A stretch of 64,000 bases of DNA, taken from the NCBI GenBank assembly GCA_027605045.1, contig JAQFWX010000033.1, positions 372,001-436,000 of the forward strand, given 5' to 3'. A program made the translations under genes and the position numbers. The DNA is from Phallus indusiatus. Its lineage: Eukaryota > Basidiomycota > Agaricomycetes > Phallales > Phallaceae. Within the stretch, counting starts at the first letter, position 1; each line of letters opens with the position of its first letter. The notes under the pieces were generated by a model, which was not told the DNA's origin, did not search any database, and worked only from the letters and a program-made list of their open reading frames with translations. This document shows positions 38,581 to 62,300 of this stretch, piece after piece.

Positions 38581-38642
38581 TAGTCCACACCAAACCCATC
38601 AGAGTACACCGTTATTACTCAGCGAAACCCATTATCACCCCA

Positions 38643-40182: not shown

Positions 40183-40547
40183 CTTATATGCTGCGCCCAC
40201 TCGCCCAACTTCAGATATCCCTCGATTTCAGAGAACGAGAGAAGTACGTATCAAGTACGCACAAGTCCGACGTCTAACGACGACTTAGACTTTAAACTAC
40301 GCACGAGCCCACAACTAAGTACGAGACGGAGTACGCAGAGTACGGATAAGAACAGAGGCGGAACAGATAGAAGAGAAGAACGGAAGACTATTACTATATT
40401 CTGACTGAGGACTCCCAGCTATAAAGCTGGGGTTTAAATACACGGGTACGGAAATACTATTCAAAAAAGGGGAAAGGAATAAAAAGGAATGGTTGTATCC
40501 AGGACGGATATTTAGGCAGAGTCTGGGGCAGATGAGTCCTGGTGTAA

Positions 40548-40830
40548 CAGTTTTTATCAGACCACAGGGGGGTCTGATAAAGGGTTTTTCTTATTTTCCC
40601 ACAAGTGCACAGAATTCCTGTCTATTGCTCAGTTAGGCTAATAGGGAATTACATGCAGTAGTAGTGGAAAAGATTAAGATTGACTAATGTAACTACTAGT
40701 CACACCGCTGTAAGGGTGTGACGGGCGCTTAAGCGTCACGCTGTGACGCGCAACTACTGCAGCTGCAGTGCCAAAGGCACTGCATGGGCACTAGGCCATT
40801 AATGGGCCCCCCTGGGGCCCATTCCTATAT
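40548..40830. other. Chain of short palindromes/hairpins
   Basis: Successive inverted repeats: TATCAGACC...GGTCTGATA, GTCACACC...GGTGTGAC, GCGTCACGCTGTGACGCG, GCAGCTGC, CAGTGCCAAAGGCACTG and GGGCCCCCCTGGGGCCC. They lie inside the long family-D LTR relative. Confidence 0.75.
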
Positions 40831-40963
40831 CCCAAATCCGTTACACCTGGTAAATTGAAATGTCGGATGGGCATGCTCTTATTTGAAAATGATCGGATCG
40901 GAGGGCTGTGCATAGAGTACGGGAGGACCCCGGAATGGGTTTCGGGGCACGCCGGGCGTGACA

Positions 40964-41280
40964 CTAGTGAAGATGAAGCTACGCCACAATGACACACAAG
41001 GTTTTGCCATGTTGTCCTCAACAACGCATGCTAAACAAATCAATATAACCTAGTATTACTCCTTGAGGGGCACGTGGAAACCTGCTAAGTTGTTCAAACA
41101 AAAACACCGGAACACGCTCACTCAGAGTAACACAATGAATAAACCAATATAACCTTGTAAATAAATCGATGTAAACTAATGAAGAAGTCAACGCAAAACA
41201 ATGAAAAAAACAGTGCACACTGATAGTACTCGGTGTGCGACACTGAAAAAAAAAACACCATCAACAAGAATCAAACCCAG
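40964..41280. other. Sequence between LTRs
   Basis: AT-rich with repeated AATATAACC motifs; no gene recognised. Confidence 0.3.
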
Positions 41281-41285
41281 AACAC

Positions 41286-41539
41286 TGTTAGGGCGACTCA
41301 GGGCACACACCTAGAGGAGGGAAAACCTAAGATCTATTGGGGGGCAGCGACTAACTACTCACCTAGAGGAGGGAAAACCTAAGAGAACAAGCTTAGGTAT
41401 CCCCCTCTAGGGAAAACGCATATAAGTACAGGATATGAGGCGCCCGACTGATCCCCATGGGATCCGAGGAGATACAAACAGAAATCGAGAGAAATCGAAG
41501 AGATCGGGAAATCGAGAAAACGGCGAAAATAGTGGAAAC
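41286..41539 (-). repeat. LTR family B, head part (split by inversion)
   Basis: Starts TGTTAGGGCGACTCAGGGC after AACAC (41281-41285) and stops at GAAAC, where a family-A LTR begins. The missing tail is the reverse complement of 57384-57486. Restored length is about 352 bp. Confidence 0.85.
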
Positions 41540-41939
41540 TGTTAGGGCTACTCAGCTCAGACTAGAGGGAGGGGATCCTAAGGTAAATATATTGAGGGAG
41601 AACTAACTACTCACCTAGAGGGAGGGGATCCTAAGAGAACAAGCTTAGGGACCCTCACTCTAGGGACAGCGACTATATACATGAAAAACGATAGCGCGGC
41701 GTGCGGCCCTGACACAGCTAAGTGCCAGACGCCCAAACCGAACATAAGCGATGTGACGCCTACGGCATCACGCCGGGTATGAGCGCGCGACGCGCGCAAG
41801 TAGAGAAAGTGGAATAGAGACAGAGGGAGCAAACGGAGGGTGGAGATAATATATGGGAAATATAAATAAAATAGAGGGAAATATATACCGATGATAATAA
41901 ATGAGGAAAAATGAGGGGACGCGGTAGCGTACCCTGACA
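41540..41939 (-). repeat. LTR family A, left inversion breakpoint
   Basis: 400 bp. Flanks do not match each other (GAAAC left, GTTAT right) but match crosswise with those of the LTR at 57487-57886. The two LTRs differ at only a few positions. Confidence 0.9.
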
Positions 41940-41994
41940 GTTATAGTAGCAGTCTGATCCTTAAGTCTAATCGCTGAACGATCGTGCCCTAACA
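41940..41994 (+). repeat. LTR family C, head part (split by inversion)
   Basis: Reverse complement of the first 55 bp of family C (TGTTAGGGCACGATCG...). It continues at 57887-58230. Restored length 394 bp, against 395 bp for the intact copies. Confidence 0.85.
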
Positions 41995-42302
41995 ACTTTC
42001 ACTTTCCGCTTCCTTGTTCTGTCTCTATTTCACCTTCTCTACTCGCGCGCATCACGCGCTCGTACCCGGCGTGATGCCTGTGACATCACATCGCTTAGGT
42101 TCGGCTTGGGTGCCTGGCACTTAGCTGTGTCAGGGCCGCACGCCGCGCTATCGTTTTTCATGTATATAGTTGTTGTCCCTAGAGTGAGGGTCCCTAAGCT
42201 TGTTCTCTTAGGATCCCCTCCCTCTAGGTGAGTAGTTAGTTTCCCTTCCAATATATTGTCTTAGGATCCCCTCCCTCTAGCCTGAGCTGAGTAGCCCTAA
42301 CA
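41995..42302 (+). repeat. LTR family A, head part (split by inversion)
   Basis: 308 bp of family A, followed by GTTCC. The other 95 bp are at 58231-58325, followed by GGAAC. Together 398 bp. Confidence 0.85.
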
Positions 42303-42942
42303 GTTCCGGTTATGAGATCATAGATGACGAACGTAGGTCCATGTATGCACAGCTCTCATCCCTGCACACCTCATGTTCATCACATGAGACATCATACCCT
42401 GCATATATTGATGTTACTTACGAATCTCACGACTTGTTTGTATTTCTCTAGTTCGGAATCTATTTCGAACTGAGTTAGAATTATTTATCTGACGTGTATA
42501 TAAACCCTAGCATACACGTAGATAGTTCTTTAGACTTAATATCGAACTACGTTCGATATCTCTATAAACTCTCCTTCTCTTATTCTATTCATCATTGAAC
42601 GTCGAGATCTTTCCTCGAGACTTGCAGCGACAGAAGCCATCTGTCATTGCCAAGAGCTACATATTGAAGCTTTCTTCATCATCGTTGAGCTTGATATCAT
42701 TCAATACGAGATACAGCTCGCGGCTCTCGAAGCTCGGAACGCACATATTAGAAACGTCCTTGACGAACTCGACGCTTGTGACGAACGTCAGGACAAATCC
42801 TGAAGAAGACTGTCGTGGCACAACCTCTTATAGGTTGAGGCCAAGTCCTGACTATCGTCAACCAACGGTGATGGTTAATAGTGTTATATTCAGCGACTAA
42901 AGTATATTATAGTATCTATAGCCATTCCCGGATATCGGTACT
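42303..42942. other. Unclassified, LTR-leader-like sequence
   Basis: Contains short palindromes (ATCGAACTACGTTCGAT, TTCGGAATCTATTTCGAA) and a TATA-like GTATATAAACCC near 42497. It may be part of another retroelement; no protein motif recognised. Confidence 0.3.
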
Positions 42943-43167
42943 TGACAGACGGACAGAACGGGCAGAGTCCGGATTAACCGAACCCCTGGTTAGTCAGAGA
43001 GTCGGATGGATGGGCTCCATTTAGAAATGGATGGATTGGAGGGCTGTGCATCAAGTACGGGGAGTACGAGGTAAGTACGTACTGCGTACTTAGTAGAGAA
43101 CCTTGGGTCCCAGCATGTGGCTTACGTAATAGCTCAGGAATTGTCACGGGGCACGCCGGGTGTGACA
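42943..43167. repeat. Partial family-D-like LTR
   Basis: Shares the GGAGGGCTGTGCAT and GGGGCACGCCGGG.GTGACA blocks with the end of the LTR at 39524-40963. The left part is missing. Confidence 0.6.
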
Positions 43168-43178
43168 ATGATGCCTGT

Positions 43179-43577
43179 TGTCAGGGTATGCTACTGCCGT
43201 CTCTCATTGTTCCTTATTTATTATTGTCGGCATTCCTTCTTTCCTATTTCATTTATCATTTCCGTATCTCATATTCATCTTCCGTTCATTGGTTCTGTCT
43301 ATATTTCACTTTCTCTACTCGCGCGCGTTGTGCGCTCATACCCTGCGTGATGCCCATGACATCACGTCGCTTAGGTTCAGTTCGGGCGCCTAGCACTTAG
43401 CTGTGTCAGGGCCGTACGCCGCGCTACCGTTTTTCATGTATATAGTTGTCATCCCTAGAGTGAGGGTCCCTAAGCTTGTTCTCTTAGGATCCCCTCCCTC
43501 TAGGTGAGTAGTTAGTATCTTTCCAATATATTAACTTAGGATCCCCTCCCTCTAGTCTGAGCTGAGTAGCCCTAACA
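43179..43577 (+). repeat. LTR family A with unmatched flanks
   Basis: 399 bp. Left flank CCTGT and right flank CCATG differ, so it is a recombined copy. It borders the truncated pol remnant. Confidence 0.85.
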
Positions 43578-44332
43578 CCATGCTGGCCAGTGGGTAAGCT
43601 CTCTAGACATGCGTTCCAACAGATCCGACGAGCACCTCTGCCTGAGCTCGACGACACTGAGGCCAACAATCCTGAAATGCCAGATCTCGTTGACGTCGAG
43701 TCAGAGATTGAAGAAGGTGATTGACTATTCGCGATATCGATGCTACCTGACAGTCCCAATGCTCACCGCATATATGCCACCGAGACCATCTCCCAACGGT
43801 TGGCCCAGGCCCACGCCAATAATGCGAACACACCAGCACCCAAGGGTTTTTGGGACATAGTGCCAGAGATGTTCCATGACTTTGCCGACATCTTTTCAAA
43901 AGAGTCATTTGACTCGTTGCTGCAGCCAAAGAAGTGGGATCACCCGATAGAGCTTGTACCGGGCTCAGAGCCCAAGTCCTGCAAGATCTACCCGTTGTCG
44001 TCCAACGAACAGGCCGAGTTAGATGTGTTTCTAGAGGAAAACCTTGCGTCTGGACGAATCCAGCCCTCCAAGTCTCCGATGGCATCCCCGGTCTTCTTCA
44101 TCAAGAAGAAAGATGGCTCCCTTCGTCTCATCCAGGATTACCGTGCGTTGAATGCTATGACGATCAAGAACTGCTATCCGCTGCCTCTGATCTCAGAGCT
44201 CATCAATAAGCTGCAAGGTGCCCAGTACTTTACCAAGCTGGACGTATGTTGGGGCTACAACAATGTGTGGATAAAGGAAGGAGACGAGTGGAAGGCTGCT
44301 TTCCGCACCAACCACGGCCTCTTCGAGCCCTT

Positions 44333-44899
44333 TGTTAGGGCTACTCAGCTCACACTAGAGGGAGGGGATCCTAAGTACTATATTGGGCAATAACTATACT
44401 ACTCACCTAGAGGGAGGGGATCCTAAGAGAACAAGCTTAGGGACCCTCACTCTAGGTACAGCTACTATATACGTAAAACGACGACGCGGCGTGCGGCCCT
44501 GACTGTTAGGGCTACTCAGCTCAGGCTAGAGGGAGGGGATCCTAAGACAATATATTGGAAGGGAAACTAACTACTCACCTAGAGGGAGGGGATCCTAAGA
44601 GAACAAGCTTAGGGACCCTCACTCTAGGTACAGCTACTATATACATAAAACGACGACACGGCGTGCGGCCCTGACACAGCTAAGTGCCAGGCGCCCAGGC
44701 CGAACCTAAGCGACGTGATGTCACGGGCATCACGCCGGGTACGAGCGTGCGACGCGCGCGAGTAGAGAAAGTGAAATAGAGACAGAACAAGGAAACGGAA
44801 AGTGAAAGTAAAATACGGAAATGATAAATAAAATAGAAAGGAAATAATACCGATGATGATAAATAGAAAAACGAGAGACGGCGGTAGCGTACCCTGACA
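44333..44899 (-). repeat. Composite of two family-A LTRs
   Basis: The first 171 bp of one LTR (44333-44503) run into a whole second LTR (44504-44899). The composite is bounded by CCCTT on both sides (44328-44332, 44900-44904). Confidence 0.85.
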
Positions 44900-44933
44900 C
44901 CCTTGGTGATGTTTTTTGGTCTCACTAACAGCC

Positions 44934-45329
44934 TGTCAGGGTACGCTACCGCCGTCTCTCATTTTCTTATTTATTATCATTGGCATCATTTCGTTTCTAT
45001 CTTATTTATCATTTCCATATTTTACTTCCACTCTCCGTTTCCTTGTTCTGTCTCTATTTCACTTTCTCTGCTCGCGCGCGTTGCGCGCTCGTACCCAGCG
45101 TGATGCCCGTGACATCACGTCGCTTAGGTTCGGTTTGGGCGCCTGGCACTTAGCTGTGTCAGGGCCGCACGCCGCGTCGTCGTTTTATGTATATAGTAGC
45201 TGTACCTAGAGTGAGGGTCCCTAAGCTTGTTCTCTTAGGATCCCCTCCCTCTAGGTGAGTAGTTAGTTTCCCTTCCAATATATTGTCTTAGGATCCCTTC
45301 CCTATAGCCTGAGCTGAGTAGCCCTAACA
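44934..45329 (+). repeat. Solo LTR, family A
   Basis: 396 bp with TSD CAGCC (44929-44933, 45330-45334), inserted into the pol remnant. Confidence 0.9.
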
Positions 45330-46011
45330 CAGCCCTGCCACCTTCCAGACAATGATGAACGAGATCTTCGAGGATATGATCTCCGAAGGTGTCATTGCCG
45401 TCTACATTGACGACATTCTCATCTATACTTGGGATTGGGAACAGCACAACCAAGTCACTTGATGTGTTCTCGAACGTCTACGCGAGCACAAGCTGTACCT
45501 CAAGGCAGAGAAGTGCAAGTTTTGCCGGACTAAGACACTGGAGAAATTGTAGGGTTTAGCCAAAAAAAGGATCCTAAGAAAATCATGGTTCGAGGCATAG
45601 GCTATTGACAATTTACCAAATTGCAAAATCATATTATAAATAATACTCAGGTTAAGGGATTCTGGCTTGGAAAATTGTCAGTATACTGCTATAATTATCT
45701 TGGCCAAATTATGTAATAATTCTTCATCATATAAGCCTATGATTGATGTTATCTATTCAGTAAAATAATGAATAGAATGAAACTTACATTATCATCATCC
45801 ATATTGAAGAATGTTCTAAAAATATTTATTGTGAAAATATATTTCTATTATAATTTAGATGCATGGAAAAACCTTGATTTTAAGCATGAGATTACACTGT
45901 GTAATATCAGAGTTTTCCTGGGAAAACCTTAATAATACATGGATTCCTGGAAAATTTTGAGAAAACTCTAATGTCACATATTGTGACCTCAAGTTTTAAT
46001 TACACAAAAAC

Positions 46012-46943
46012 TGTTAGGGCACGATCGTTCAGTGATTAGACTTAAGGATCAGACTGCTACTATAACCCAGTAACCCAGTCTATAATAGCGCAAGGAACTA
46101 CACATGCGCGCACAGTTGTATATATACATGATTACGCTTAAGGCTGTCCACGGGTAATTACCCGCGGGTACGGGTACCTACCCGCGGGTAATGACCTGCT
46201 CTCAAAGTGGAACCCGGATCCGCGGGTAATTACCCGACGGGTACGGGTAACCTGTGGCAGGTACCCGGGTCATAGAGAGTACCTCAAAATTCACTAGTTT
46301 AGACGATTTGAGACCATTTTTTTGCTTATGTAACATGGGCGCCTATTTAAGCGCCCGACTTATCTTGTAGATATTCGAAAAATATTTATTACATATTTTT
46401 TTATTTTCATTTTAAGTAAGAATTGAGCTCTCTAGAGCCAAAATAAAAAAAAAATCACGACAAAATTCACTCAAAAATTGTACTTATATGACATGAACCG
46501 AGGTTATTGCATACCCGCGGGTACCTGCTTGTTGTCTAAAGTGAAACCCGGACCCGCGGGTAAAATTGACCCGGGTAATTACGTAAGCAGGTACCCGTGA
46601 CCCGCGGGTAAAAACCTGTTGACCCGTTCGGGTAACCCGGGTAATCCAATACCCGTGGACAGCCTTAATTACGCTATCTCTAACCAATAGCTATCAGGTG
46701 CATTATCTACCAATAGGAAGAGCGGTAGTCAAGGACATACGGATGACATAGAGAAAGAGGGAGATGTGACAGAATGGAGCGAACGGAGAAACGGGGAGAG
46801 TTCGGGAGAATATGCGAGGGATAAGTACGGACCGGTATACCGGGTACCGTATGACCGACGTAGAGCACGTAGGCATCTAAGTAGGTTATACTATACTACG
46901 CTAATATACTAGAGTGACCGTTAACCTAGGACGTACCCTGACA
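46012..46943 (-). repeat. Solo LTR, family C, carrying a MITE
   Basis: TSD AAAAC (46007-46011, 46944-46948). 395 bp after removal of the MITE and its duplication, equal to the copy at 50171. Confidence 0.9.
46139..46667. mobile_element. hAT-like MITE, 529 bp, copy 2
   Basis: Perfect 8-bp TSD ATTACGCT (46131-46138, 46668-46675). Same orientation as copy 1 and apparently identical. Confidence 0.93.
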
Positions 46944-47368
46944 AAAACTCACTATTTCTCACTCTCTCAAAATTATGATAAAAAATTATATTGATAAGTA
47001 TTTATATTAACTTCATTATATAATTTTCTGCTATGGTTAATAATAATATATGTTTTAGTTTGTATACTGTTTGATTGAATAGAAAAAGTTATTGATAATG
47101 TTATATAAGTAAAAATTCTTACATAATTTAACTAAGATAAAAATAGCAACATACTGACAATTTCTCAAGTCAAAATCCCTTAATCTGAGTAATAGTTATA
47201 ATATCATATTACAATCTAGTGAATTGTCATATGCCTATACCTCGAACTATAATTTTGTTAGGATCCTTTTTTTGACCAAACCCTACAATGTCTCCAGTGA
47301 GATTGAGTACCTGGGTGTTGTCATTTCCGAGAATACCGTCGAGATGGATCCCGTGAAAGTCTCAGGTG

Positions 47369-48007
47369 TGTCAAGATCGGTGTTTCGGACAAATCCCGGA
47401 TATTTCCGGACTACTACGAAACACGTAACTAGAATACGGAGGAGTATGGAGAGAGGGACTTGGCTTCAGCTTATATGCTGCGCCCACTCGCCCAGCTTAC
47501 GATATCCCTCAATTTCAGAGAACAAGGAAGTACGTAGCTAGTACGTATCAGTACGACATCAAGAACGTAACATCAAACTATAAGTCTAAACAGTCAAACG
47601 ACGTCTAGGACTTAAGTACAAGATAGTACGCAACGAGTACGCACTAGAGCTCGCGATTACGGAGTAAGAACGGAGGTGGAACTAGAGACGAAAAGTAACT
47701 AATATTCAGACTACTGTCCCTAGCTGAAAAGCTACGATTTAAATACAAAATGGTGCGGACCAAAATGGGAATAATGTCGAATACGGAACAAAGGAGTTTA
47801 GCATGAAAGAAGCGAGCGGAGATGTGAATCAGACAGTTGGGACTTCTCGTTCCTTGTGGTGATGTGATAACAAGGAAGTAGTGTCTACTAAGTACGCACT
47901 AGAGTACGGGGAAACATACGGACATCGGATGAACTAAATCCGCAGTGATGAAATCGGAATTACCCCGGAATTCCGGGTTTGAGTCCCGGGTCACGCGGGG
48001 CGTGACA
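47369..48007. repeat. LTR family D with unmatched flanks
   Basis: 639 bp, TGTCAAGATCGG to GGGCGTGACA. Left flank AGGTG belongs to the pol remnant; right flank TCTAG belongs to an LTR of family B. Probably a recombinant between two insertions. Confidence 0.82.
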
Positions 48008-48238
48008 TCTAGGGAAAATGCATATAAGTACAGGATATGAGGCGCCCGACTGATCCCCATGGGATCCGAGGAGATACAACAGAAATCGGAGTAAATCGAA
48101 GAGATCGAGAAATCGAGAAACCGACGAAAATAATGGAAACGGTGAAATACGGAAAATGAGGGAAATCGAAGTGCAAAATGAAATCAAAAGAAATCGAAAA
48201 GATCGAATAATCCGGCAAGGCGCTAGCGTACCATAACA
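48008..48238 (-). repeat. LTR family B, tail part
   Basis: Matches family B from TCTAGGGAAAA through GCGCCCGACTGATCCCCATG to CCATAACA. The head is missing, replaced by the family-D LTR. Confidence 0.75.
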
Positions 48239-48269
48239 GCCAGCATGCTTTGGGTTTTGAATTTAATAT

Positions 48270-49376
48270 GGTGAGTAACCATACATATTATTGCTGCAAT
48301 GCTAATGCATCATTTTTACAGGTTAATACTCAGAATGTTGCTGCGCTGAGTGTGCAAACGGAAAATGGTCCACAGCTCATGGTACGCATGGCTGTCATGG
48401 ATGGAAAGGCCCTATCCCACAAGGCGAGTTGTTTATATATTTGCAGTTATCTTGTTGACATTTTTTTAGATATGTGGTATTGCGCGATGTCGTAATCCGC
48501 TGGAAGACTATCAGAAAGGTTGCTTCTGTTCAACCCACAGTGAATACATCGAGCGTTGTGCCATCAATGAGTGCAATGCTCCTGTTGGAGAGGAAAATAA
48601 GTTTACCTGTGATTTACTGGAGCATGCGTGTATTTACCATCAATATTTGAACAGGTTAGAATCTATTTTTTTGAGGGAATATCTCCAAATTGATGATCAT
48701 ATGGTTACTTAGGTTTGGCTCCTCTTCGTTCCTCAATGTTCGCCGGAATGTCTCGAAGAATGAAACACCAAGATTCATAAATTCTGAAAGCGCTGATGGT
48801 GAAAATAATACCAGTAATAACCATAGATTCAGAGCAAGGCGCATATATTGTATCAAAACAATTCAGTGGGCTTGTGGATTCCCCATTGCATGGGGGAAAT
48901 GCTATGATGGCGAGGGAGAGTCTCAAGTTTTGCAATTCTGTAATACTTGGTTCCCTTCTGGCTCACCCCGTCCTCAGTTTCTAGTATACGACAAGGCTTG
49001 CAAATTATTATCCCATTTAGTGACTCAAAATCCAAACAGCGATTGGTTTCAAACGACGCGATTTATTGTTGACGGGTTCCACTACAGAAGTCATAGCTCA
49101 ACCGACCGTCTTTGCCGCGAACATTGTAATCCCCAACCTCTCGATGGTTCCCAACCAGATTTAATGATTCTTCAACGGGATGAAAGAGGTAGAATAGTCT
49201 CTAAAAGTGCATTTAATACGGAAACAGCTGAACAGTTCAACTCATGGATGGATGGTTTTGAATCTCAGCTTTGTGCAATGTCAAATTTTAATTTTGACTT
49301 TTTTATTCATTCAGCTATGCTTTTATACAAAGAAGAAAAGGAGTCAAAGAATGCTCCTTTAGATACTGATAGTTAA
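48270..49376 (+). CDS. KDZ-transposon-associated cysteine-cluster (CxC6-type) protein, partial
   Basis: At least three exons: about 48320-48423 (MAVMDGKALSHK), 48470-48654 (ICGIARCRNPLEDY through ACIYHQYLN) and 48712-49376. The sequence has a Cys/His-rich part (CGIARC...CFCSTH...C...C...CDLLEHACIYH), then FLVYDKACKLL, TRFIVDGFHYRSHSSTDRLC, FNTETAEQFNSWMDGFESQL and FDFFIHSAMLLYKEE. This matches the CxC-type cysteine-cluster proteins carried by KDZ (Kyakuja-Dileera-Zisupton) elements of mushrooms. The N-terminal half is missing, cut by an LTR at 48238, so it is probably inactive. Intron 1 uses a GC donor (CACAAG/GCGAGT). Confidence 0.7.
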
Positions 49377-49789
49377 ATGTTGTATTTACGCCATCATTTT
49401 AAGTATACGCGGCATGTTTGGCTTCATCTGAAATTGACGCGGTGCAACAACGTGTTGCGTCATCGCATCGTTCCTTTCTCTCAAACCATCACCACTCTCA
49501 CCACAGTATTTTTACCAACGAGAAAATTATTGATGGTACATGGTTTTTTTATTCTACTCATCAATAACTAATGATAAATTTATAAGATATGCTAATTATT
49601 GAGATGAAAGGGCCTGCATTACCCCACCGTCTTCTGCTTGAGAGGATATACCAAGTGTCTCCCCTTTTCTCGCCAATCCTGATGATTTCAAGGTGTTTAG
49701 CCTGTTCTTTTATGTTTTCCTGATGTTACTCACACTCCTGCGTATCGCTCCGCGCAATATTCAACCCATTATTCGCGATTACACTCACC
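49377..49789. other. 3' flank of the KDZ-associated gene
   Basis: No further gene recognised; possibly the end of the KDZ element. Confidence 0.3.
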
Positions 49790-51110
49790 CTGCTCTCAGT
49801 GCATGTCTCTGGCCTGTGTAGTGCATTTTCCAGCCAGCACACCAATTTTCAGGCAATTTCTTTGTGTATTTATATTCATAAACATTTCATAAACAATTTA
49901 CAGCCCTTTTTATATCTCTCCGCGCGCGAATTTTGGAACGTCGTGTGCGATTACCACCTAAGTGTCCTCCCGCTTTTGTCAGTATGTCCCCATTGCGTGT
50001 AGCGCGTTTTCCGGCCAGCACATTGCTATACTGGTGGGTTTTTTGTGTATTTTTGCTCATTAACATCTCACAAACAATTTCCAACCTTCGTTATATTGCT
50101 CCGCGGGCGATTTACAAGACGTCGTGCGCGATTACAATCTGAGTACCCTCTCACTGTCACTCTCAGTATGTGTAAGGATACGATCGTTCAGCGGGTGAGA
50201 CTTAAGGATAAGACACTATAACCCAGTAGTCCAATCTATAATAACGCAAGGAGCTACTCTTGCGCGCACAGTTGTATATATATACATGAGTGGGCTATCT
50301 CTACCAATAGCGCTCAGGTGCTATATCTACCAATAGGAAGGAAGGCAGTCGATGACATAAGAGAAACATGAGTAGAAAGGAAGATGGTGACAGTATGGAG
50401 CATACGAAGAAACGGGGAAAGTATGGGAGAATACGGGAGGATAACACGGACCGGCATACCGGGTACCGTACGATGGATATGATAACGCGTAGGTCAGCAT
50501 ATACGTCTATACTATATGCACAGTATACTAGATTAGTCCTTATGGTCCTAGCACGTACCCTGACAGTATGTATCTATCGCGTGTCGCACATTCGCCAGCC
50601 AGCACAACGCTATTCAGGTAGTTTTTTTGCATATTCCTATTCCTTAACATCTCATAAACAATGCTCAAGTATAGTCATAAGGCTCCACACACAAATTTCC
50701 AAACGTCGCGTGTGATTGCACTCCCCCTACCCCAGGACATGTCCCCATCGTGTGCAGCGCATTTGGCAGCCAGCGCAACGCTATTCAGGTAGTTTCTTCG
50801 CGTATTCCTATTCTTGAGCATCTTATAAACAATGCTCAAGTATAATCATAAGGCTCCGCACGCGATTTTCCAAACATCACATGCGATTGTACTCCCCCTA
50901 CCCCAAGACATATCCCCGGTGCGTGTAGCACGTTTGCCGGCCAGCACAACGCTATTCAGGTGAGGTTTTTGTGTATTTCCGTTCATTTCCATCTCATAAA
51001 CAATACCCAAGTATCGACATAACGCTCCGCGCACGATTTTCGAGTCATCATACACAATTACAATGCCTAGTCAACAGTCTACATGCTGCCCCACTTTGTT
51101 GCACTTTTTG
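49790..51110. repeat. Satellite-like array of ~170-bp imperfect repeats
   Basis: Blocks recur in the same order: CCAGC(C)AGCACA..GCTATTCAGGT, then TTTGTGTATTT..ATTCAT.AACAT.TCATAAACAAT, then CTCCGCGC.CGAT.TTC..A.CGTC, then GCGATTACA. They start near 49829, 50013, 50591, 50768 and 50936. A family-C LTR (50171-50565) interrupts the array. Confidence 0.75.
50171..50565 (-). repeat. Solo LTR, family C
   Basis: 395 bp with TSD GTATG (50166-50170, 50566-50570), diverged from the copy at 46012. Starts TGTAAGGATACGATCG. Confidence 0.88.
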
Positions 51111-51950
51111 GCATACCGTTGATTCAAGAGGTACGCTGTCATGTATCAAGGTCATTTTGACCTAAATACCCCCTTCCTGAAGACAGGCTCAAGGCCTAGA
51201 GCATTCAAAGTCAAAAACAATTTAAAACTCTATAAAACCCAAGTCATTCCAAGGGATTTGGTAAATAACTCATGGAGTTATGGTCAAAACACTCTCAGAA
51301 GTCAAGTATTTTCTGAGTTCATTGCTTGGTCATCAAGAATGGACTCTGGACTCTTGTTTTGCCATGTTTCCCTTGTTTATTAATATCTCCTTCATTTCTC
51401 CATGGTTTCTCCTTATATGCTATTCTTTTATCCTTTATTTCCCATAACTCCTGGATCTTGGATCTAATCTCCATGGATTTAGATCTAATCTCCCTGGATC
51501 TTGGATTTTATTCTCACCAGATGACACATGTGCACCTTTGACCCTGTGCTTTGTTATCTTCTATCTTTCTAATCTTTAATCTGTTCCTATCTTCCCCCTT
51601 TTCTTTCTATCTCTCAATATCCTCTTATCTTTCTCTTACTATAAGACTTGTTTACAAGTCTTCAGCTATCTCTATCACTTGCAGAACACACTATCAGTTG
51701 TGTCTACTGCATTTAAAACAGCATATAACAAGAGTAGACCCCTTGGATCTCATTCTTCAGCAACAGGCTTTTGTTGTGAAGCCAGTGCCTAAGCAAACTC
51801 TCAGCAAGTAATTGTAACTATTCTTATTCTGGTAGCACCCCAGTAGGCAAACTATAAGGATACATTACATACGCTCATTATATTCTCATTATTTTATGTA
51901 GTAGAGTGCAATTAACTTCTAATTATCATCAAGATATTTCGCCATGCCAC
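51111..51950. other. AT/pyrimidine-rich stretch
   Basis: No supported gene. The short plus-strand frames (51326-51811) are low-complexity Leu/Ser/Phe-rich from pyrimidine runs. Repeats of GGATTTAGATCTAATCTCC occur near 51455-51510. Confidence 0.35.
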
Positions 51951-52346
51951 TGTCAGGGTACGCTACCGCCGTCTCTCATTTTCTTATTTATTATCATCGG
52001 CATCATTTCGTTTCTATTTTATTTATCATTTCCATGTTTTACTTTCACTCTCCGTTTCCTCGTTCTGTCTCTATTCCACTTTCTCTACTCGCGCGCGTCG
52101 CGCGCTCGTACCCGGCGTGATGCCCGTGACATCACGTCGCTTAGGTTCGGCTTGGGCGCCTGGCACTTAGCTGTGTCAGGGCCGCACGCCGCGTCGTCGT
52201 TTTATGTATATAGTAGCTGTACCTAGAGTGAGGGTCCCTAAGCTTGTTCTCTTAGGATCCCCTCCCTCTAGGTAAGTAGTTAGTATTTTCCGCAATATAT
52301 TCTCTTAGGATCCCCTCCCTCTAGTGTGAGCTGAGTAGCCCTAACA
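51951..52346 (+). repeat. Solo LTR, family A
   Basis: 396 bp with TSD GCCAC (51946-51950, 52347-52351). Confidence 0.9.
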
Positions 52347-52532
52347 GCCACCATCATCTAGTTCCCATCCCCCCTCCCTATCCCAATACCCTTTTACCTT
52401 CCCTTCCTGTTCTTTCTGTTCTATTCTTCCAAAGTCCCCCCACTGTTGAAATAGCGTGTCTCAGTGGGATTCTCTAGTGTGATTTAACGGAGGCAGCTCC
52501 TACTATGCTACCTTTTTTTGGCAGTTTGGTTT

Positions 52533-53166
52533 TGTCATGTATCTAGGGCACTTTTACCCAGCTCAGCAAAAACAAGTCAAAAGGCACAGCCACTAAATCC
52601 AAAAACAGCACATAAACAACAAAAGCCCACATTATGTCAGTTTTTTTTTTACTATTCTTTTTTGAGCTCTTGCTTGTATTTGTGTATCTCTATTTGTTTA
52701 TTTTCTAGGAACAGTCATATGACTCAGTTCCAGGTACTTTTTATTTTTCTGTCTCACTATAATGTTTCACTATAATTTTTACTACTCCACCTTTACTAAT
52801 TAATTTCCTTTCTAAGTAATTTCTTATCTTTTAATTACTAATATTTTGCTTTATTTGTAGCAGCCCCAAAGTGTATAAATAGGGGCTGATTTCTCTTGTA
52901 AATAGCAATCTGCCTTATCATCTATACTAGTGCACCATAGTGCTTACCAATTAAATTGGTCTTTCTCTTTTCTATTTCTTTCTCTTTTCTATCTCTACCT
53001 CAAGACTATCAGTAGCAGCCAGCTCAAGTCTTACAACAGCAGCAGCAAGCTCTGTCTCACCCTCAATAACAAGACCTTTGTTGCTAGACTAGGTTCCCCC
53101 TAAACAGCTCTCTTATTTGCAACAGTACAAGGTGCCTATACCTTGAACCAGAGCAAATACATTACA
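52533..53166 (+). repeat. 5' LTR of the gag-only element
   Basis: 634 bp, TGTCATGTATCTAGGG to GCAAATACATTACA. A TATA-like GTGTATAAATAGGGG lies at about 52870-52884. The sequence just after it (AATTGGTGGACGTTCTGGG) is where the primer site should be; I could not assign a tRNA. Confidence 0.92.
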
Positions 53167-53317
53167 AATTGGTGGACGTTCTGGGAACCTCAGAATCTTC
53201 TTGGGGAGCATCTCTAAGGATTTATTGAGGGGGCTATCTTGCCAGGAGACCTTTCAGCTTGCTAGAGCTGTTTGACCCCCACCTTGTTTCACCCAATTTT
53301 TCCTGTGACATCACTTG

Positions 53318-53680
53318 TCTTGCAGTGCTGCTGCTCTGACATCATTTGTCTCAGACACTCCTCTCACCTGACTGCTCCTGTCTTACAGTGCCACTGTCTT
53401 GACATCAGTTGTCTCACTCACCCCACTCACCTGACTACTCTTGTCTTGCAGTGCAACTGCTTTGACATCAGTTTGTCTCACTCACTCCACTCACTCCACT
53501 CACTGGAACTACTTCTGTCTTGCAGTGCCACTGCCTTGGCATTAGTTTGTTTCACTCATCTCACACACCTGACTACTTCTGTCTTGCAGTGCCACTGCCT
53601 TGGCATTAGTTTGTCTCACTTGCTCCACCCACCTGTCATTGCAGTGCCACTGTTCTGACTACCCTTGTCTCACTTACTCC
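53318..53680. repeat. Minisatellite in the gag-only element leader
   Basis: About five imperfect units of roughly 65-75 bp built from CTGTCTTGCAGTGCCACTG and TTTGTCTCACTCACTCCACTC motifs. Confidence 0.8.
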
Positions 53681-53990
53681 ACTCCCCTGATAACTCTTGA
53701 TTCACTCCCTTCCAACCTTCCACCCTCTTGTCTCACCCTTGTTTCTCTCACTCACTCCCTTGTCTCATTCACTCCACCCCTTGTCTCACCTGCATATACT
53801 CTTGCCACACCTTTCTAGAGCAGATTGCTGATCTGTTTCACCTTGCCACCCAGTGTGCCACTCACTCAGTCTACTCTAAGCTATAGAGTTAATTGATTCT
53901 CCTTCACTGCTTTTGAAGGGAAGAGCTACTGGTCCTCACCACACTCATTTATCTTCCCAACCTCCTACTACCCTTCAATCCTCTTCCTCA

Positions 53991-55895
53991 ATGTCTGAGA
54001 CTCCTCAAAGACATAGAGTGAACCTCACCATTCCATTCTCCCCCACTGCTTCTATGATTTTCAGTGGACAACCACTTCTCACTATCAATCCTACTCAAGC
54101 TTTCATTTCCTTGGACAAGACTCCTCTTGCCCCTAGTACTAGTCACCTCAGGAGAATTTATGACAACAACAAAACTCTTGGAGCAAGAAGGGATGCTATT
54201 CTGAAAATTGCTCAAGAAGACATCATGCAAAATCCTGACAGACTGGCTTCAGTTCCTCTTCCCAAAGAAGCTGAAGACTTGGCAGGAGATCTCTTATCAA
54301 AATTAGATGATCTCCTCATTGGAATACCTTTTGTGGATGAAGATATGGATCAAATTGGCTATCACCTTGATCCAATCAAATTTGACTCCTTCTTTTTCCT
54401 TCTGAACAAATTTGCAAGAAGGGCTATGGAGAAACTAGATGGACAATTACCCTTGCCAACCTGGGGAAAGGGAAACCATCCTCTAGATGTCTGGACAGCT
54501 GATGATTTTGAACTTCTCTCTGTTGCTTTCAGAGATGATGTTGAAACATTTCTGGCCTATCTCTTTCACAATGAAGTCCTTTTTCCTTCTGAAAGGAAAC
54601 CAGCCACCTCTGAATCAATCTCTGAAGGGATTGTTCCAAAAATTGTTCAATTCAGGCCAGAAAATCTTGCAGAAGATATCTCTCAAGCCTCAACACACAA
54701 ACCAATAAGACAGATCTTCAGCCAGCCTCTCACTCTGCAATTAAATGCTGCAGAAGACCTTCCTTCTATGCATACATCCTCAATGCATACATCATCAATG
54801 CCTATCCCTTCTAATCCTCCTACCAATTTCTTGGGACAACCTTCTCAAGGAGGAAATGTAGGCAGAGGGGATGATGGAGGAGATGATGATGGAAGTGGAG
54901 ACTCAGATGGTCCTTCAGACAGGAAGCTTCCTAGAGGATTAAGAAGACCTTTTAGACCTTGGAGAGGCAGAAGAACTTCTCATTATCCCTCTTTACCTTC
55001 CTTCAACCACTCTTCTTCAAAGGACAAGGACAAGGAACCTTACTTTGACACCAAAATCAAACATGACTCTATTCCTACCTGGGATGGAGATCCAAATACT
55101 TTGGCCAGATGGATTCTTCAAGTAAACAGCTGGTCAGAAAGAAGTCCACTAGCATATAAGCAGCTAGGAACTGTTGTTCCAACAAGATTCAAGAAGGATG
55201 CAGAAGCCTGGTTCTGGTCACACTCCTTGGAATACAGGAGAGAAATCACTCAAGACTGGGGAACACTCAGAACAGCAATTGCCTCCTATTATATGAACAG
55301 GACTTGGTTGGACAAACAGAAGAGAAGAGCCAACAAAGCACACTACAGGGAATCAGAATATTCTCAAGAATCTCCCAGCAGTTACTTCATCAGAAAATCA
55401 GAGCTACTCAATCTGGTCTACAGTTACTCTGATTCAGAAATTATGATGGAAGTAATGGAAGGAGCTCCTAGCTTCTGGTCTACTATCCTGGATCCACATA
55501 GATGCAAAGATCTCATTGAATTCTCTGCAGCTATTAGGTATCATGAAGATGCCTTGCAAAGAGGAGGACTCCCTGATGATGTCTTGGAAAAAAGAATCAA
55601 ATTATTGGAAGAACAACTCTCAGAGTCTTCTGATGATCTCTCCCTGTCCAATGAATACTCAGCTACTTCTCTGGAAAATTTCCCCTTTCCAAAGGATGAT
55701 TTCAATGTCTCTAGAAAAACCTCTCCAGAACAAAAGGGAGCAAGACCTTGCAGACATTGTGGAAGTGGAAAGCACTGGGACAATGAATGCAAATACTCCA
55801 AGAAAGAATTCAAATATGCTCAAGAAAATAATTCCAACACATCCCCCCTTGATGAGGATAGTCAGCAAGAAGACACTCATGAAGAGTCTACCTAA
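53991..55895 (+). CDS. gag: Gag protein of the gag-only retrotransposon
   Basis: The frame is open from before 53913, but the first ATG is 53991 (MSETPQRHRVNLTIPFSPTA), giving 634 residues. The middle is disordered and acidic, then basic (RGDDGGDDDGSGDSDG, RGLRRPFRPWRGRR). The capsid-like part (TWDGDPNTLARWILQVNSW, KKDAEAWFWS, YRREITQDWGTLRTAIASYY) matches the retrotransposon-gag fold. One zinc knuckle of CX2CX4HX4C form (CRHCGSGKHWDNEC) lies near the C-terminus. The intact frame in a pol-less element suggests the Gag is selected or the copy is very young. Confidence 0.88.
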   Translation: MSETPQRHRVNLTIPFSPTASMIFSGQPLLTINPTQAFISLDKTPLAPSTSHLRRIYDNNKTLGARRDAILKIAQEDIMQNPDRLASVPLPKEAEDLAGDLLSKLDDLLIGIPFVDEDMDQIGYHLDPIKFDSFFFLLNKFARRAMEKLDGQLPLPTWGKGNHPLDVWTADDFELLSVAFRDDVETFLAYLFHNEVLFPSERKPATSESISEGIVPKIVQFRPENLAEDISQASTHKPIRQIFSQPLTLQLNAAEDLPSMHTSSMHTSSMPIPSNPPTNFLGQPSQGGNVGRGDDGGDDDGSGDSDGPSDRKLPRGLRRPFRPWRGRRTSHYPSLPSFNHSSSKDKDKEPYFDTKIKHDSIPTWDGDPNTLARWILQVNSWSERSPLAYKQLGTVVPTRFKKDAEAWFWSHSLEYRREITQDWGTLRTAIASYYMNRTWLDKQKRRANKAHYRESEYSQESPSSYFIRKSELLNLVYSYSDSEIMMEVMEGAPSFWSTILDPHRCKDLIEFSAAIRYHEDALQRGGLPDDVLEKRIKLLEEQLSESSDDLSLSNEYSATSLENFPFPKDDFNVSRKTSPEQKGARPCRHCGSGKHWDNECKYSKKEFKYAQENNSNTSPLDEDSQQEDTHEEST

Positions 55896-56107
55896 AGTCT
55901 AGACAGGAAGATGAAATCTTCTCTGAGGGGATTATCTCAAAAGGGCAGCATATATGCTGGAAACAACTAAAACAAGTCAACAAGATTTCAGAAGAACAAA
56001 ACACCTATGGAAATCCATTGGAACCTTCTAGGAATCCCTATTTCTCTTCAACCTCTTTTTCTTCCTTCTTCAAGAAAAGCAATTCACTCAAAAAAGAGAG
56101 GGGATTT

Positions 56108-57277
56108 TGTCATGTATCTAGGGCACTTTTACCCAGCTCAGCAAAAACAAGTCAAAAGGCACAGCCACTAAATCCAAAAACAGCACATAAACAACAAAAG
56201 CCCACATTATGTCAGTTTTTTTTTACTATTCTTTTTTGAGCTCTTGCTTGTATTTGTGTATCTCTATTTGTTTATTTTCTAGGAACAGTCATATGACTCA
56301 GTTCCAGGTACTTTTTATTTTTCTGTCTCACTATAATGTTTCACTATAATTTTTACTACTCCACCTTTACTAATTAATTTCCTTTCTAAGTAATTTCTTA
56401 TCTTTTAATTACTAATATTTTGCTTTATTTGTAGCAGCCCCAAAGTGTATAAATAGGGGCTGATTTCTCTTGTAAATAGCAATCTGCCTTATCATCTATA
56501 CTAGTGCACCATAGTGCTTACCAATTAAATTGGTCTTTCTCTTTTCTATTTCTTTCTCTTTTCTATCTCTAAGGCTGTCCACGGGTATTGGATTACCCGG
56601 GTTACCCGAACGGGTCAACAGGTTTTTACCCGCGGGTCACGGGTACCTGCTTACGTAATTACCCGGGTCAATTTTACCCGCGGGTCCGGGTTTCACTTTA
56701 GACAACAAGCAGGTACCCGCGGGTATGCAATAACCTCGGTTCATGTCATATAAGTACAATTTTTGAGTGAATTTTGTCGTGATTTTTTTTTTATTTTGGC
56801 TCTAGAGAGCTCAATTCTTACTTAAAATGAAAATAAAAAAATATGTAATAAATATTTTTCGAATATCTACAAGATAAGTCGGGCGCTTAAATAGGCGCCC
56901 ATGTTACATAAGCAAAAAAATGGTCTCAAATCGTCTAAACTAGTGAATTTTGAGGTACTCTCTATGACCCGGGTACCTGCCACAGGTTACCCGTACCCGT
57001 CGGGTAATTACCCGCGGATCCGGGTTCCACTTTGAGAGCAGGTCATTACCCGCGGGTAGGTACCCGTACCCGCGGGTAATTACCCGTGGACAGCCTTATC
57101 TATCTCTACCTCAAGACTATCAGTAGCAGCCAGCTCAAGTCTTACAACAGCAGCAGCAAGCTCTGTCTCACCCTCAATAACAAGACCTTTGTTGCTAGAC
57201 TAGGTTCCCCCTAAACAGCTCTCTTATTTGCAACAGTACAAGGTGCCTATACCTTGAACCAGAGCAAATACATTACA
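56108..57277 (+). repeat. 3' LTR of the gag-only element, with MITE inside
   Basis: 633 bp of LTR plus the 529-bp MITE and 8-bp duplication, which sums exactly to the observed 1170 bp. Confidence 0.92.
56570..57098. mobile_element. hAT-like MITE, 529 bp, copy 3 (inverted)
   Basis: Perfect 8-bp TSD TCTATCTC (56562-56569, 57099-57106). Reverse orientation relative to copies 1 and 2. It sits in an already very young LTR, so it moved very recently. Confidence 0.93.
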
Positions 57278-57383
57278 GGTTTGGGAGTTCACGTTGATAA
57301 TACCAAAATAGAGCATTGTGAGTGTATTCGTTGTGGATCAGTGGTTTATTTCTCAGTGACGTTGCTCATACATGTCTTGTGTT

Positions 57384-57486
57384 TGTTACAGTACGCTAGC
57401 GCCTCGCCCTATTATTCGATTTCTTCGATTTCTTTCGATTTCATCTCGCACTTCGATTTCCTTCATTTCCCATATTTTGTCGTTTC
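57384..57486 (+). repeat. LTR family B, tail part (split by inversion)
   Basis: Starts TGTTACAGTACGCTAGCG after GTGTT (inverse of AACAC) and ends GTTTC (inverse of GAAAC). It completes the head at 41286-41539. Confidence 0.85.
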
Positions 57487-57886
57487 TGTCAGGGTACGCT
57501 ACCGCGTCCCCTCATTTTTCCTCATTTATTATCATCGGTATATATTTCCCTCTATTTTATTTATATTTCCCATATATTATCTCCACCCTCCGTTTGCTCC
57601 CTCTGTCTCTATTCCACTTTCTCTACTTGCGCGCGTCGCACGCTCATACCCGGCGTGACGCCGTAGGCGTCACGTCGCTTATGTTCGGTTTGGGCGTCTG
57701 GCACTTAGCTGTGTCAGGGCCGCACGCCGCGCTATCGTTTTTCATGTATATAGTCGCTGTCCCTAGAGTGAGGGTCCCTAAGCTTGTTCTCTTAGGATCC
57801 CCTCCCTCTAGGTGAGTAGTTAGTTCTCCCTCAATATATTTACCTTAGGATCCCCTCCCTCTAGTCTGAGCTGAGTAGCCCTAACA
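57487..57886 (+). repeat. LTR family A, right inversion breakpoint
   Basis: 400 bp, inverse orientation to 41540-41939 and almost identical to it. Flanks GTTTC and ATAAC match crosswise. Confidence 0.9.
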
Positions 57887-58230
57887 ATAACCCAGTAACC
57901 CAGTCTATAATAGCGCAAGGAACTACACATGCGCGCACAGTTGTATATATACATGATTACGCTATCTCTAACCAATAGCTATCAGGTGCATTATCTACCA
58001 ATAGGAAGAATGGTAGCCGAGGACATATGGATGACATAGAGAAAGAGGGAGATATGACAGAATGGAGCAAACGGAGAAACGGGGAGAGTTCGGGAGAATA
58101 CGCGAGGACAAGTACGGACCGGTATACCGGGTACCGTATGACCGACGTAGAGCGCGTAGGCATCTAAGTAGGTTATACTATACTACGCTAATATACTAGA
58201 ATGACCGTGAGCCTGGGACGTACCCTGACA
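57887..58230 (-). repeat. LTR family C, tail part (split by inversion)
   Basis: Continues the head at 41940-41994. Ends ACGTACCCTGACA and is followed by AAAGT. Confidence 0.85.
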
Positions 58231-58325
58231 AAAGTAAAATACGGAAATGATAAATAAAATAGAAACGAAATGATGCCGATGATAATAAATAGGAAAATGA
58301 GAGACGGCAGTAGCGTACCCTGACA
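58231..58325 (-). repeat. LTR family A, tail part (split by inversion)
   Basis: Last 95 bp of a family-A LTR, followed by GGAAC. Its head is at 41995-42302. Confidence 0.82.
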
Positions 58326-58389
58326 GGAACGTGCGTGGAATATTCTAGAAAGGCCTTTCCGCGGATGTTCCAGGAGTTAAGAGAGACGG

Positions 58390-58692
58390 TGTCACGGTAC
58401 GCTAGCACCTCTTCCGCCTCTTCCGATTATTCGATTTCTTCGATTTCTTTCGGTTTCATTTCGTATTACGATTTCCTTCATTTCCCGTACTTTGCCGTTT
58501 CCATTAGTTCCCTCGTTTTCTCGATTTCTCGATCTCTTCGATTTCTTTCGATTTCTGTTTGTATCTCCTCGGATCCCATGGAGATCAGTCGGGCGCCTCA
58601 TATTCGGTACTTATATGCGTTTTCCCTAGAGGGGGATACCTAAGCTTGTTCTCTTAGGTTTTCCCTCCTCTAGGTGAGTAGTTAGTCGCTGT
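58390..58692 (+). repeat. Partial LTR, family B
   Basis: Starts TGTCACGGTACGCTAGC and reads through to GGTGAGTAGTTAGTCGCTG; the last part of the family-B sequence is missing. Confidence 0.75.
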
Positions 58693-58970
58693 ATTACAGC
58701 CAGTTACAGCACCGATCCATGTACACAGAATTTCGATTTTTTTTGGTTCCAAAAATGATATATTAGCTAAATTTGATTTAATTACAAATATGAAACCATT
58801 TATTTATAATTATTATGCTATTTAATGAAATTATGTAAAAAATGTAACCCTATAGCTAACAGTTAGACCGTGGTTCACCGAGAAATCAAACCCAAGAAAA
58901 CTAGCCCTCTGTATATGCCTAAGTGGCATATACTCGATCCACCGCTATGTGGTGAATCCGTTACAACATG
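58693..58970. other. AT-rich stretch at the right edge of the island
   Basis: Nothing recognised. It ends where similarity to the aldo-keto reductase upstream region begins. Confidence 0.3.
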
Positions 58971-59397
58971 AAGAACGTCACTGGAAAATTCTGAGATTGG
59001 TCCACTGGCAATTTATGTCTTATCGGATCGGCTGACGAAAATTGACTCGCGGTTACCCGCCAAGCCCCGATCAAATCAGCAGTAAACTTCCCTATCTCAT
59101 CATATCAGCGGAGATCAAATCAGTAGAGTTGAATTGACTGACATGTGCACATGTCTCTACACTTCCATATATTCATTCAAAAATTCTTTACCTCGGTTCA
59201 ATGTTATGTAAGAGACTTGGTTTCTGACCTGAAGTCAGATTCACGACTTACATCACAAATCTATATTTACACAAATACTAGAAGCGCAATGATGGTGATA
59301 CAAGGAACATACATAAGTTTGAGAAAACAGAAACATCCCATAAAGCGAATCCTCGAGCATTGCATCTAATGCTAGGTACAAAGGGACCCTCGTATAT
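58971..59397. repeat. Second copy of the AKR-promoter / ABC-3' flank segment
   Basis: Matches 27432-27895 in the same orientation. It contains the region that lies upstream of the aldo-keto reductase at 27420, but no reductase coding sequence follows here. Confidence 0.85.
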
Positions 59398-62300
59398 TCA
59401 CACTTTGCCGGACTTATGGGCCTTTTCTTCTGCGATTTTATACAGAATATCTCTATCGCCACTTTCGTCGACCAACGACTTGAAGTAGCCATCTGGCTTC
59501 TTCAAAAGATTGGCAGGAGAATCGAATTCTACCATATTTCCAGCGTCAAGAAGTATAATCTTGTCTGCATCCATGATCTGGTATTGTGTGCTAAATATAT
59601 CTGGACGTAAGAGACGAATATAATTATACACGTACTGTGTTAAGTCGGTGGGCTACAATGAGCAAGGTGGAGTCTCGCGAGGCTTCACGCAACGAGTTTT
59701 GAATAATGGCGTCCGTAGCGTAATCAATGGCGCTCGTTGCTAATAAAGTAATAAAGACCGTGAGACACCTTCAAAAGAGTAATACAAGCATTATCAATAC
59801 CTTCGTCCAAAATCAAAAGTTTGCTCCCTCTCAAGATAGCTCGAGCCAACGCCAAAATCTGACGTTGCCCAACGGAAAGGTTTGATCCTCCGCTAGAAAT
59901 TGTACTATCCAACGATAATTTTGCCACTTGATCATTCTGTTCTTGTAGTGCAAATAAACCAGACAATCTTAGCGCATCATTCAAAGTCGCATCGGAGTGC
60001 TCCGAAAACGGGTCCAGATTGTCTCGAAGTGTACCAGTCAGAAGTTCCGGCCGTTGCGGAATAATGGTTATGTTTCTTCTTAAATTCTCAAGATTGATCT
60101 TTCCTGTGTCCAGACCATCATATAAAACCTTCCCTTCGGTCGGAATACAGCGTAAGAGCGATAGTGTGAGCGTCGACTTTCCACTGCCTGTCCTTCCTAC
60201 TACGCCAATTTTTTCACCGGACTTTATGGTAAAGTTAAGTTTGTGTAAGACCTGGATTTGTATTGAATGACGAAAACATTTAATATTACAGTTAGTTTGA
60301 CTCACCTCTGGAGAATCTGCTGAGTAACGTGCACAGAGATTTTCCACAACAACACTTCCGGACGCAGGCCAATAAGCAGGCGGTGCGCCGGATGCAGAAG
60401 GTTTCGGTTCCTGGACGATGTTAACGTACGACTCGATTCGTTCAATACTATTGAAAACACATAGCGTAAGCATAAGTATCAAGCTTAAACCTAAATGCTG
60501 ACCTATTCCCTTGCACTTCAAGATCATTTGTAATCCGGACTAAATATCCGAATGATCAGAAAACAGATGCCTTACTATTCAAACAAATCATCCCGTCAAC
60601 TTACCCCAATCAAGAATACACGATGAAAAGGTCACCGCCATGCCTAGAGCAAGTCCACCACTACTAGCACTTTGCGAACGATCGTTCAAAATATAAAATG
60701 CAAGAGCTGCTGCCAATGTCGCTCCTAAAGCTTCAGTCCTTACAGCTACCCATCTATAGAACCAGATCTAAGTTATACACAACCAAAAATTATTCCAAGA
60801 ATATACCTGTTGCAATCGTAATATGCGCGTGCGGGGCGGATATATCCCTCAATATGTCTGAGATTGTCCTTGCGGAAGGGCGTCTCAGCCCCATACGCTC
60901 GGATAGAAACTGGAAAACAAGACGTACATCAGAGCGGACATATATGTGTTCAGATAGGATATCTTCTCACCTATTCCAGTTATCATAGCATTCATTTGCG
61001 CTATAATAGGCGACCGGTGATTAGACATCTGCCTCTTAATGGGAAGTTGAGCTTTCATATATAGTTGACCGCAAAGGAAACCTAAGACGGCGATGAAAAA
61101 ACCTGGAATGACGAATCTAGGTACTGTAATCATGATGGTCCCAAAACTCGTGATTAAAACGCTGGTCGTAAGGATCTGAAGATAATTATCTAGTAGACGA
61201 AAAACGCGGTGGCATAGAGCATACCCAGCCTTGTGTATAATTGGCTATAGGTCCATCTACGGCAGCAATGTCCTGTGTGCATCTCGCAATCACACGTGCA
61301 GTTGGTACCGTGTCAAGCCATCTATGAATGATTCAATGTGTCCAAGGCGGTTTAGATGAGCAGTACCCACCTAAGCGTCGTTCTAAGCACACTGGTAGAA
61401 AGCATTCTATGAAGTGCTCTCGAAGCCTAAATAATCATGAATGTGAATACACCAAAATCAACTTTTGGAACTTACCCTGATCGAACCAAAGATTGCTACG
61501 GACATACCAACGGCGTAAAGCACACCCTCGAATATCATTATAACACCATACACTGACAAATAAAAAAATGGCGAAACGCTTTCAGGCGGATGATTCTCAT
61601 AATCGGCAGCCCATCTTCCTAAAAGCCACGACCCAACGCAAGTCAAAGCTTTTGAAAAGAGAATGGTCGAAACAACGGTGAACCAATATAGAAAACCGCC
61701 CGCATTGGAGTAATAAAGTTTCATCGCATCCCATGATACATGCCCAATGGCAACTTCTTCCGCAAGAACGAGTTTACCGCCCTTCTTCTCTGCCACGTCT
61801 GTTTTAGCGTCAGGGGTATCAACCGCTTTTTCTTCGTTCTCAAAAGTTTCTTGTTCTTGCATGACTTCTTCCAGTAGTCTTTCATTCTTGGACAAAGCAT
61901 CATTCAGGCTTCCTTGACTGGCAATCTGGCCGCTCATGTCCAACGACACGACAAAGTCCGCCACGGGTGCCACCAAAGAAACGTTATGAGTCTGAGAACA
62001 TTAAAGTTAAAGAAAAGAGTCGATTCAGAATAACACCAATGATGAATACTTACAACCAGAATAACCGTCCGACCTTTCAACAAATCTCCGTTGAAACAAT
62101 TGTCGACGATGAATTTCCCGGTATGAACGTCCAGACAAGCCAGGATATCGTCAATTAAGACAATCTCCGCCTTAGAATATATAGCTCTCGCCAACGTCAC
62201 GCGTGCATTTTGACCACCACTGCCAGCATGTAGCATTAGTACATCTCCACTTGTTCGCACGAAATCCCAATGACTTTTAAGGATATATGCGTACCTTAGA

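Follow-up and report, generated by a model that had tools for sequence, protein, structure and literature searches.

The stretch of DNA considered here, referred to as the window, comprises 64,000 nucleotides of Phallus indusiatus and corresponds to positions 372001-436000 of contig C133, in a genome of 67.2 Mb and 206 contigs. The protein families encoded within it include DUF6535 and the KDZ-associated CxC6 domain, which we take to be typical of mushroom-type basidiomycetes, and the window looks like the DNA of such a fungus. The region is a pile of nested transposons, within which a 15.5-kb segment lies between two solo long terminal repeats (LTRs), termed LTR1 and LTR2, and appears to have been inverted between them. 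All positions follow window numbering unless a contig is named. For comparison, 96 loci, amounting to 260,519 bases with overlaps included, were cut from the contigs of the genome.

LTR1 and LTR2 are both 400 bp in length, lie on opposite strands and differ at 3 positions (99.25% identity). Their family has TG...CA ends and 5-bp target duplications, as found in Ty3/gypsy-type LTR retrotransposons. Both are solo LTRs with no genes, and the Ty3/gypsy domain order is seen in a related full-length element at 31236-37456 (~6.2 kb, with gag and pol encoded on the minus strand), which has GTGAC on both sides and whose LTRs are 99.25% identical to each other and ~88% identical to LTR1. Protease, reverse transcriptase, RNase H and integrase follow in that order within this element; the pieces were searched apart, with the last three passing the Pfam cut-offs and the protease matches falling below them. 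An integrase in the last position is the mark of the Ty3 type.

In neither LTR1 nor LTR2 do the two flanking 5-mers match each other (Table 1). If 41940-57486 is flipped, LTR1 stands between two copies of GAAAC and LTR2 between two of ATAAC, and the same flip reunites three further solo LTRs, B, C and A, whose split parts regain the duplications AACAC, AAAGT and GGAAC, respectively, such that five LTRs in all recover matching 5-bp target duplications. The chance of a match between two random 5-mers of the window is 0.001, which for five independent matches becomes about 1e-15, with the fit of the split LTRs not yet counted. The first-pass annotation of this DNA had claimed a 15.5-kb inversion on these grounds. 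On re-reading the sequence, its coordinates and all five flanking 5-mers were as it had given them, the flipped length is 15,547 bp, and one event accounts for every observation.

The halves of B, C and A were each compared separately with other copies, without ever being joined beforehand, keeping matches that stopped no more than 8 bases short of the inner ends and pairs with at most 15 bp between them. Every adjacent pair of halves shows an overlap of exactly 5 bp, in 13/13 pairs for B, 2/2 for C and 21/21 for A (counts that include copies repeated across overlapping loci), which is what would be expected if each half had retained one copy of the target duplication of the nested insertion. 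Recalculated lengths are 352 bp for B, where about 352 had been given and five complete copies measure 351-352 bp, and 394 bp for C, as claimed, the complete copy being 395 bp. For A the rebuilt length of 398 bp was borne out; its complete copies span 389-413 bp, mostly 395-397, where 397-400 had been given. The two adjacent pairs of C are incomplete copies; the complete one, at C151:1640625-1641019, was rejected as an allelic copy of C, since its flanking sequence is different, which makes it a paralogue.

If the segment has been turned round, what did the two junctions look like beforehand? On the right, the insertion of A interrupted a repeat, D, which is now seen as 58331-58394 on one side and as the inner-left sequence 42308-42508 on the other. 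There are 39 examined loci in which a match to 58331-58394 starts in its first three bases, matches starting beyond these having been skipped. Three of the 39 are the window itself, and in the other 36/36 the inner-left sequence adjoins with exactly 5 bp between; these five bases are GTTCC in 35/35 of the loci in which they were read. Most of the D loci came from a probe that held the five bases but lacked the inner-left sequence, so that the adjacency was not selected for; 40 of 160 candidates for this probe were scored and 30 loci cut out. Two pairs of loci overlap (L020/L043 and L027/L060), leaving at least 34 D places. Support for the ancestral right junction comes through these paralogous copies of D and not through contig C151.

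It is the left junction that is found on C151. Both flanks of the segment have counterparts on this contig: 9000-11500 has a 97% copy at C151:1679619-1682097 and 60000-60539 a 98% copy at C151:1636230-1636769, both on the minus strand, 58670-60069 is 99.3% identical to C151:1636700-1638095, and pieces of 37457-41285 occur in order at C151:1661508-1657258, mostly at 97-99% with two short pieces at 93-94% and with other LTRs interspersed among them. These matches indicate that C151 carries the region in antiparallel, and from the sequence it is most probably the other haplotype; similar paired matches exist between other contigs (C67/C178 and C100/C190). The outer-left sequence 41124-41285 is joined directly, at C151:1657180-1657419, to reversed 57383-57301 via a single GTGTT, without B, without LTR1 and without the inversion, which is the junction that the flip predicts. 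The comparison with the other haplotype that had been suggested as a check is thus available at the left junction, where this probable second haplotype has the uninverted order. An LTR pair on C138 (39071 on the minus and 55137 on the plus strand, ~16 kb apart) was also considered as the other haplotype and rejected, since it runs minus then plus, the reverse of LTR1 and LTR2; of its two LTRs, one stands between matching duplications and the other between flanks that neither match nor are exchanged.

A further indication of the earlier orientation comes from a related element on C173. There, pieces of 37541-41115 ascend at 1228514-1229293 with 85-97% identity and are followed by 49502-49329 (90%) and 48839-48300 (92%), both reversed. 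In the window 48300-48839 and 49329-49502 run forward, and the opposed orientations of the left-flank and interior pieces on C173 represent the uninverted relative orientation.

Table 1. Features at the two breakpoints and within the inverted segment, in window positions.
Feature	Position	Strand	Remarks
AACAC, outer target duplication of LTR B	41281..41285	+	partner GTGTT at 57379-57383; single copy in empty site C151:1657258-1657262
Solo LTR B, opening 254 bp, interrupted by LTR1; GAAAC at end	41286..41539	+	
Left recombining LTR (LTR1), 400 bp, between GAAAC and GTTAT	41540..41939	+	
Inverted segment of transposon remains, 15,547 bp	41940..57486	no strand	
First 55 bp of solo LTR C, severed from remainder at 57887-58230	41940..41994	-	
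308-bp part of solo LTR A, ACTTT at start, GTTCC after	41995..42302	-	
Inner part of repeat D, target of A's insertion; other part from 58331	42308..42948	-	
KDZ-type transposon remains; CxC6 domain, Pfam E 1.2e-11 at 48470-48709	48300..49502	+	reversed relative to left flank in comparison with C173 element
Inner-right sequence, adjoins 41285 directly on C151	57301..57383	-	
Last 103 bp of solo LTR B, GTTTC at end	57384..57486	-	
Right recombining LTR (LTR2), 400 bp, between GTTTC and ATAAC	57487..57886	-	
344-bp part of solo LTR C, ATAAC at start	57887..58230	+	
95-bp part of solo LTR A, AAAGT at start	58231..58325	+	
GGAAC, outer target duplication of A	58326..58330	+	partner GTTCC at 42303-42307
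Outer part of repeat D	58331..58394	+	

Exchanged flanks are rare among the relatives of these LTRs that were compared. The genome holds 1356 first-look candidates of the LTR1/LTR2 type, and flanks were read in a subset made up of the best-scoring copies and their neighbouring sequence. This gave 55 full-length LTR rows. In 36 of them the two 5-bp flanks are identical, 11 form one side of a full-length element, and in 8 the flanks do not match. LTR1 and LTR2 are the only pair among these 8 whose flanks are exchanged. Judged by coordinates, the unmatched row in locus L043, truncated by the end of the locus, repeats an LTR that has matching flanks in L020, and that at window 43179-43577 borders internal retrotransposon sequence.

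The explanation favoured for this arrangement, with a probability of roughly 90%, is an inversion between LTR1 and LTR2 through ectopic homologous recombination. Two solo LTRs of one LTR-retrotransposon family, facing opposite ways, would have come to lie about 15.5 kb from each other. On the left, B would have entered its site and LTR1 then the older solo LTR B; on the right, A would have gone into D, C into A and LTR2 into C. As the last step, a homologous exchange between LTR1 and LTR2 would have inverted the intervening DNA, so that each of the two LTRs ended up beside one half of both target duplications and B, C and A were broken in two. Observed directly are the exchanged duplications, the three LTRs in pieces and the ancestral junctions, right in paralogues and left on C151. 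That the exchange took place within the LTRs by homologous recombination is what we infer from them. The inversion most likely occurred on the C133 lineage after the insertion of B, because B is absent from the corresponding site on C151.

A variant of this explanation accepts the inversion as real but replaces the simple crossover with repair or with template switching from one LTR to the other, or invokes subsequent gene conversion. LTR2 is the nearest copy to LTR1 among those compared, and the two have variants in common at 0-based positions 20, 55, 240 and 331 that occur in 6, 0, 2 and 1 of 26 other copies, respectively. That such uncommon variants are found in both, despite their different insertion sites, would suit conversion between them, but sibling insertions from one source copy fit equally well and the junctions require no second process. 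This variant is possible though unlikely, and its share overlaps the figure given above for homologous recombination. The use of the LTR1/LTR2 differences to date or place the crossover was dropped, as three sites are too few and there is no known parental copy.

A different concern is that the inversion belongs to the assembly and not to the chromosome, the segment having been joined the wrong way round via two 400-bp inverted LTRs. The breakpoints do fall exactly within a 99.25% identical inverted repeat, where such an error would arise, and the ancestral junctions exist elsewhere, one of them on the probable other haplotype. Against this, neither the window nor any of the 96 loci contains a single N, and contigs reach 3.4 Mb despite the abundance of this LTR. 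The ~6.2-kb full-length element, with its near-identical LTRs, is continuous in the window, and a 2.46-kb stretch of the segment has been assembled at each place where it occurs, including 98% identical copies on two other contigs. The contigs, and the repeats assembled through, suggest reads far longer than 400 bp. Moreover, the different interior DNA on C151 makes confusion between haplotypes unlikely. The first-pass annotation had left genuine recombination and an assembly inversion side by side; with a repeat of 400 bp, no N in the sequence examined and longer repeats assembled through, the former is much the likelier, and an assembly error is improbable. Scarcely credible is the idea that no inversion happened, with LTR1 and LTR2 as original insertions with unequal flanks and the half-LTR fit a coincidence or the product of separate truncations, since, although unmatched flanks do occur (the 8/55 rows, LTR1 and LTR2 included), it requires five independent chance matches of 5 bp and three truncations that happen to complement one another, every one of them reversed by a single flip, is contradicted by the empty sites and leaves the ancestral junctions in the copies of D and on C151 unexplained.

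A number of points nonetheless weigh against inversion by ectopic recombination. The case is drawn from the assembled sequence and not from reads. The halves of C and the inner part of D were identified via repeat families and not via unique DNA. The three differing sites between LTR1 and LTR2 are too few to display chimerism, a usual third criterion for such an event. With regard to C151, the interior stretches that are single-copy in the examined sequence have no match in C151:1638582-1657180, so this contig cannot display the whole uninverted segment and is informative at the left only. Finally, a B-type LTR is present at C151:1655420-1655775, 1.4 kb from the empty site; it was considered as an allelic B and rejected, as its own duplication, GATTT, identifies it as a separate insertion.

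The corresponding interval C151:1638582-1657180 consists of other transposons and matches only repeats of the window. Set against window 41285-58584 it has in common repeats and 83 bp (57301-57383), and no single-copy stretch. Two interior probes, as well as a probe of 53640-56100, gave no match on C151. Some 17-19 kb of transposons thus appear to have turned over between the C133 and C151 copies, within flanks that are mostly 97-99% identical.

The inverted segment itself contains LTRs, a reverse transcriptase fragment (43725-44390), KDZ-type remains and short DNA transposons. A 671-aa open frame at 53880-55895 has only weak zinc-knuckle matches (E 0.23 and 0.31), and no intact host gene was recognised among the subset of open frames tested. 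The surrounding 53640-56100 has 98% copies on C168 and C149 and a partial one on C121. The open frame probably belongs to an element at 52530-57277 that has 52530-53166 and 56105-57277 as long direct repeats at its ends, the second of them interrupted by a short DNA transposon. A 529-bp element with inverted ends TAAGGCT...AGCCTTA is present at 39654-40182, 46139-46667 and 56570-57098, the three copies being 99.8-100% identical, with 8-bp duplications at the first (CTTATATG) and third (GAGATAGA). These look like recently active short DNA transposons, presumably of the hAT type. The copies at 39654 and 56570 were considered as the LTRs of an element spanning the breakpoint and rejected, since their inverted ends and own 8-bp duplications mark them as short DNA transposons, which the inversion left unaffected. 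Elsewhere in the segment, the LTR at 44504-44899, with flanks CTGAC/CCCTT, stands directly after a partial LTR (44333-44503), whose missing half does not lie next to it, and the arrangement is perhaps a further rearrangement.

The closest known parallel is inversion 2z3 of Drosophila buzzatii, produced by the transposon Galileo, where exchanged target duplications served as evidence (PMC2775673). As here, opposite copies of one transposon stand at the breakpoints with exchanged duplications and nested elements, and the non-inverted chromosomes have single target copies. The two cases differ in that Galileo is a DNA transposon with 7-bp duplications, the inversion was natural and compared between chromosomes, and both copies are reported as chimeric (PMC2775673), in contrast to the solo LTRs, 5-bp duplications, 15.5 kb and five nested duplications on C133. 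Three of the features that identify an ectopic inversion are seen here: homologous, opposed copies at both breakpoints and exchanged target duplications on C133, and non-inverted junctions with single target copies elsewhere, the left in the second copy on C151 and the right in paralogous copies of D. For mushroom-forming basidiomycetes, the accessible parts of a study of Marasmius oreades describe transposon-related structural changes, among them one inversion at the element MarorhAT-10 and deletions that are put down to nonallelic homologous recombination between copies of an element (PMC9674265). Those changes were seen between protoclones, and these parts of the study include neither an LTR pair nor exchanged duplications. 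Likewise, the available text of PMC10085805 has no solo-LTR inversion with exchanged duplications. None of the titles listed in literature searches concerned solo LTRs that had exchanged duplications through an inversion, which is no proof of absence. The mechanism is already known from Galileo, and since the argument from exchanged duplications had already been applied to 2z3, the C133 inversion is a further, very clean case of it.

What does the inversion mean for the fungus? The earlier claim that everything between the two LTRs was moved is true but of small consequence, the recognised content being transposon material, and the biological effect is probably small because only transposon remains are recognised in the segment. 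The 99.25% identical inverted LTR pair is still in place, and the segment may conceivably flip repeatedly, with both orientations coexisting among nuclei or strains as a reversible switch, a prospect that is distinctly doubtful. The wider value of the locus lies in the record that it has kept, in that nested target duplications within a single assembled contig allow a past rearrangement to be read and its steps put in order. Exchanged 5-bp flanks offer a ready marker with which to count LTR-mediated inversions in transposon-rich fungal genomes.

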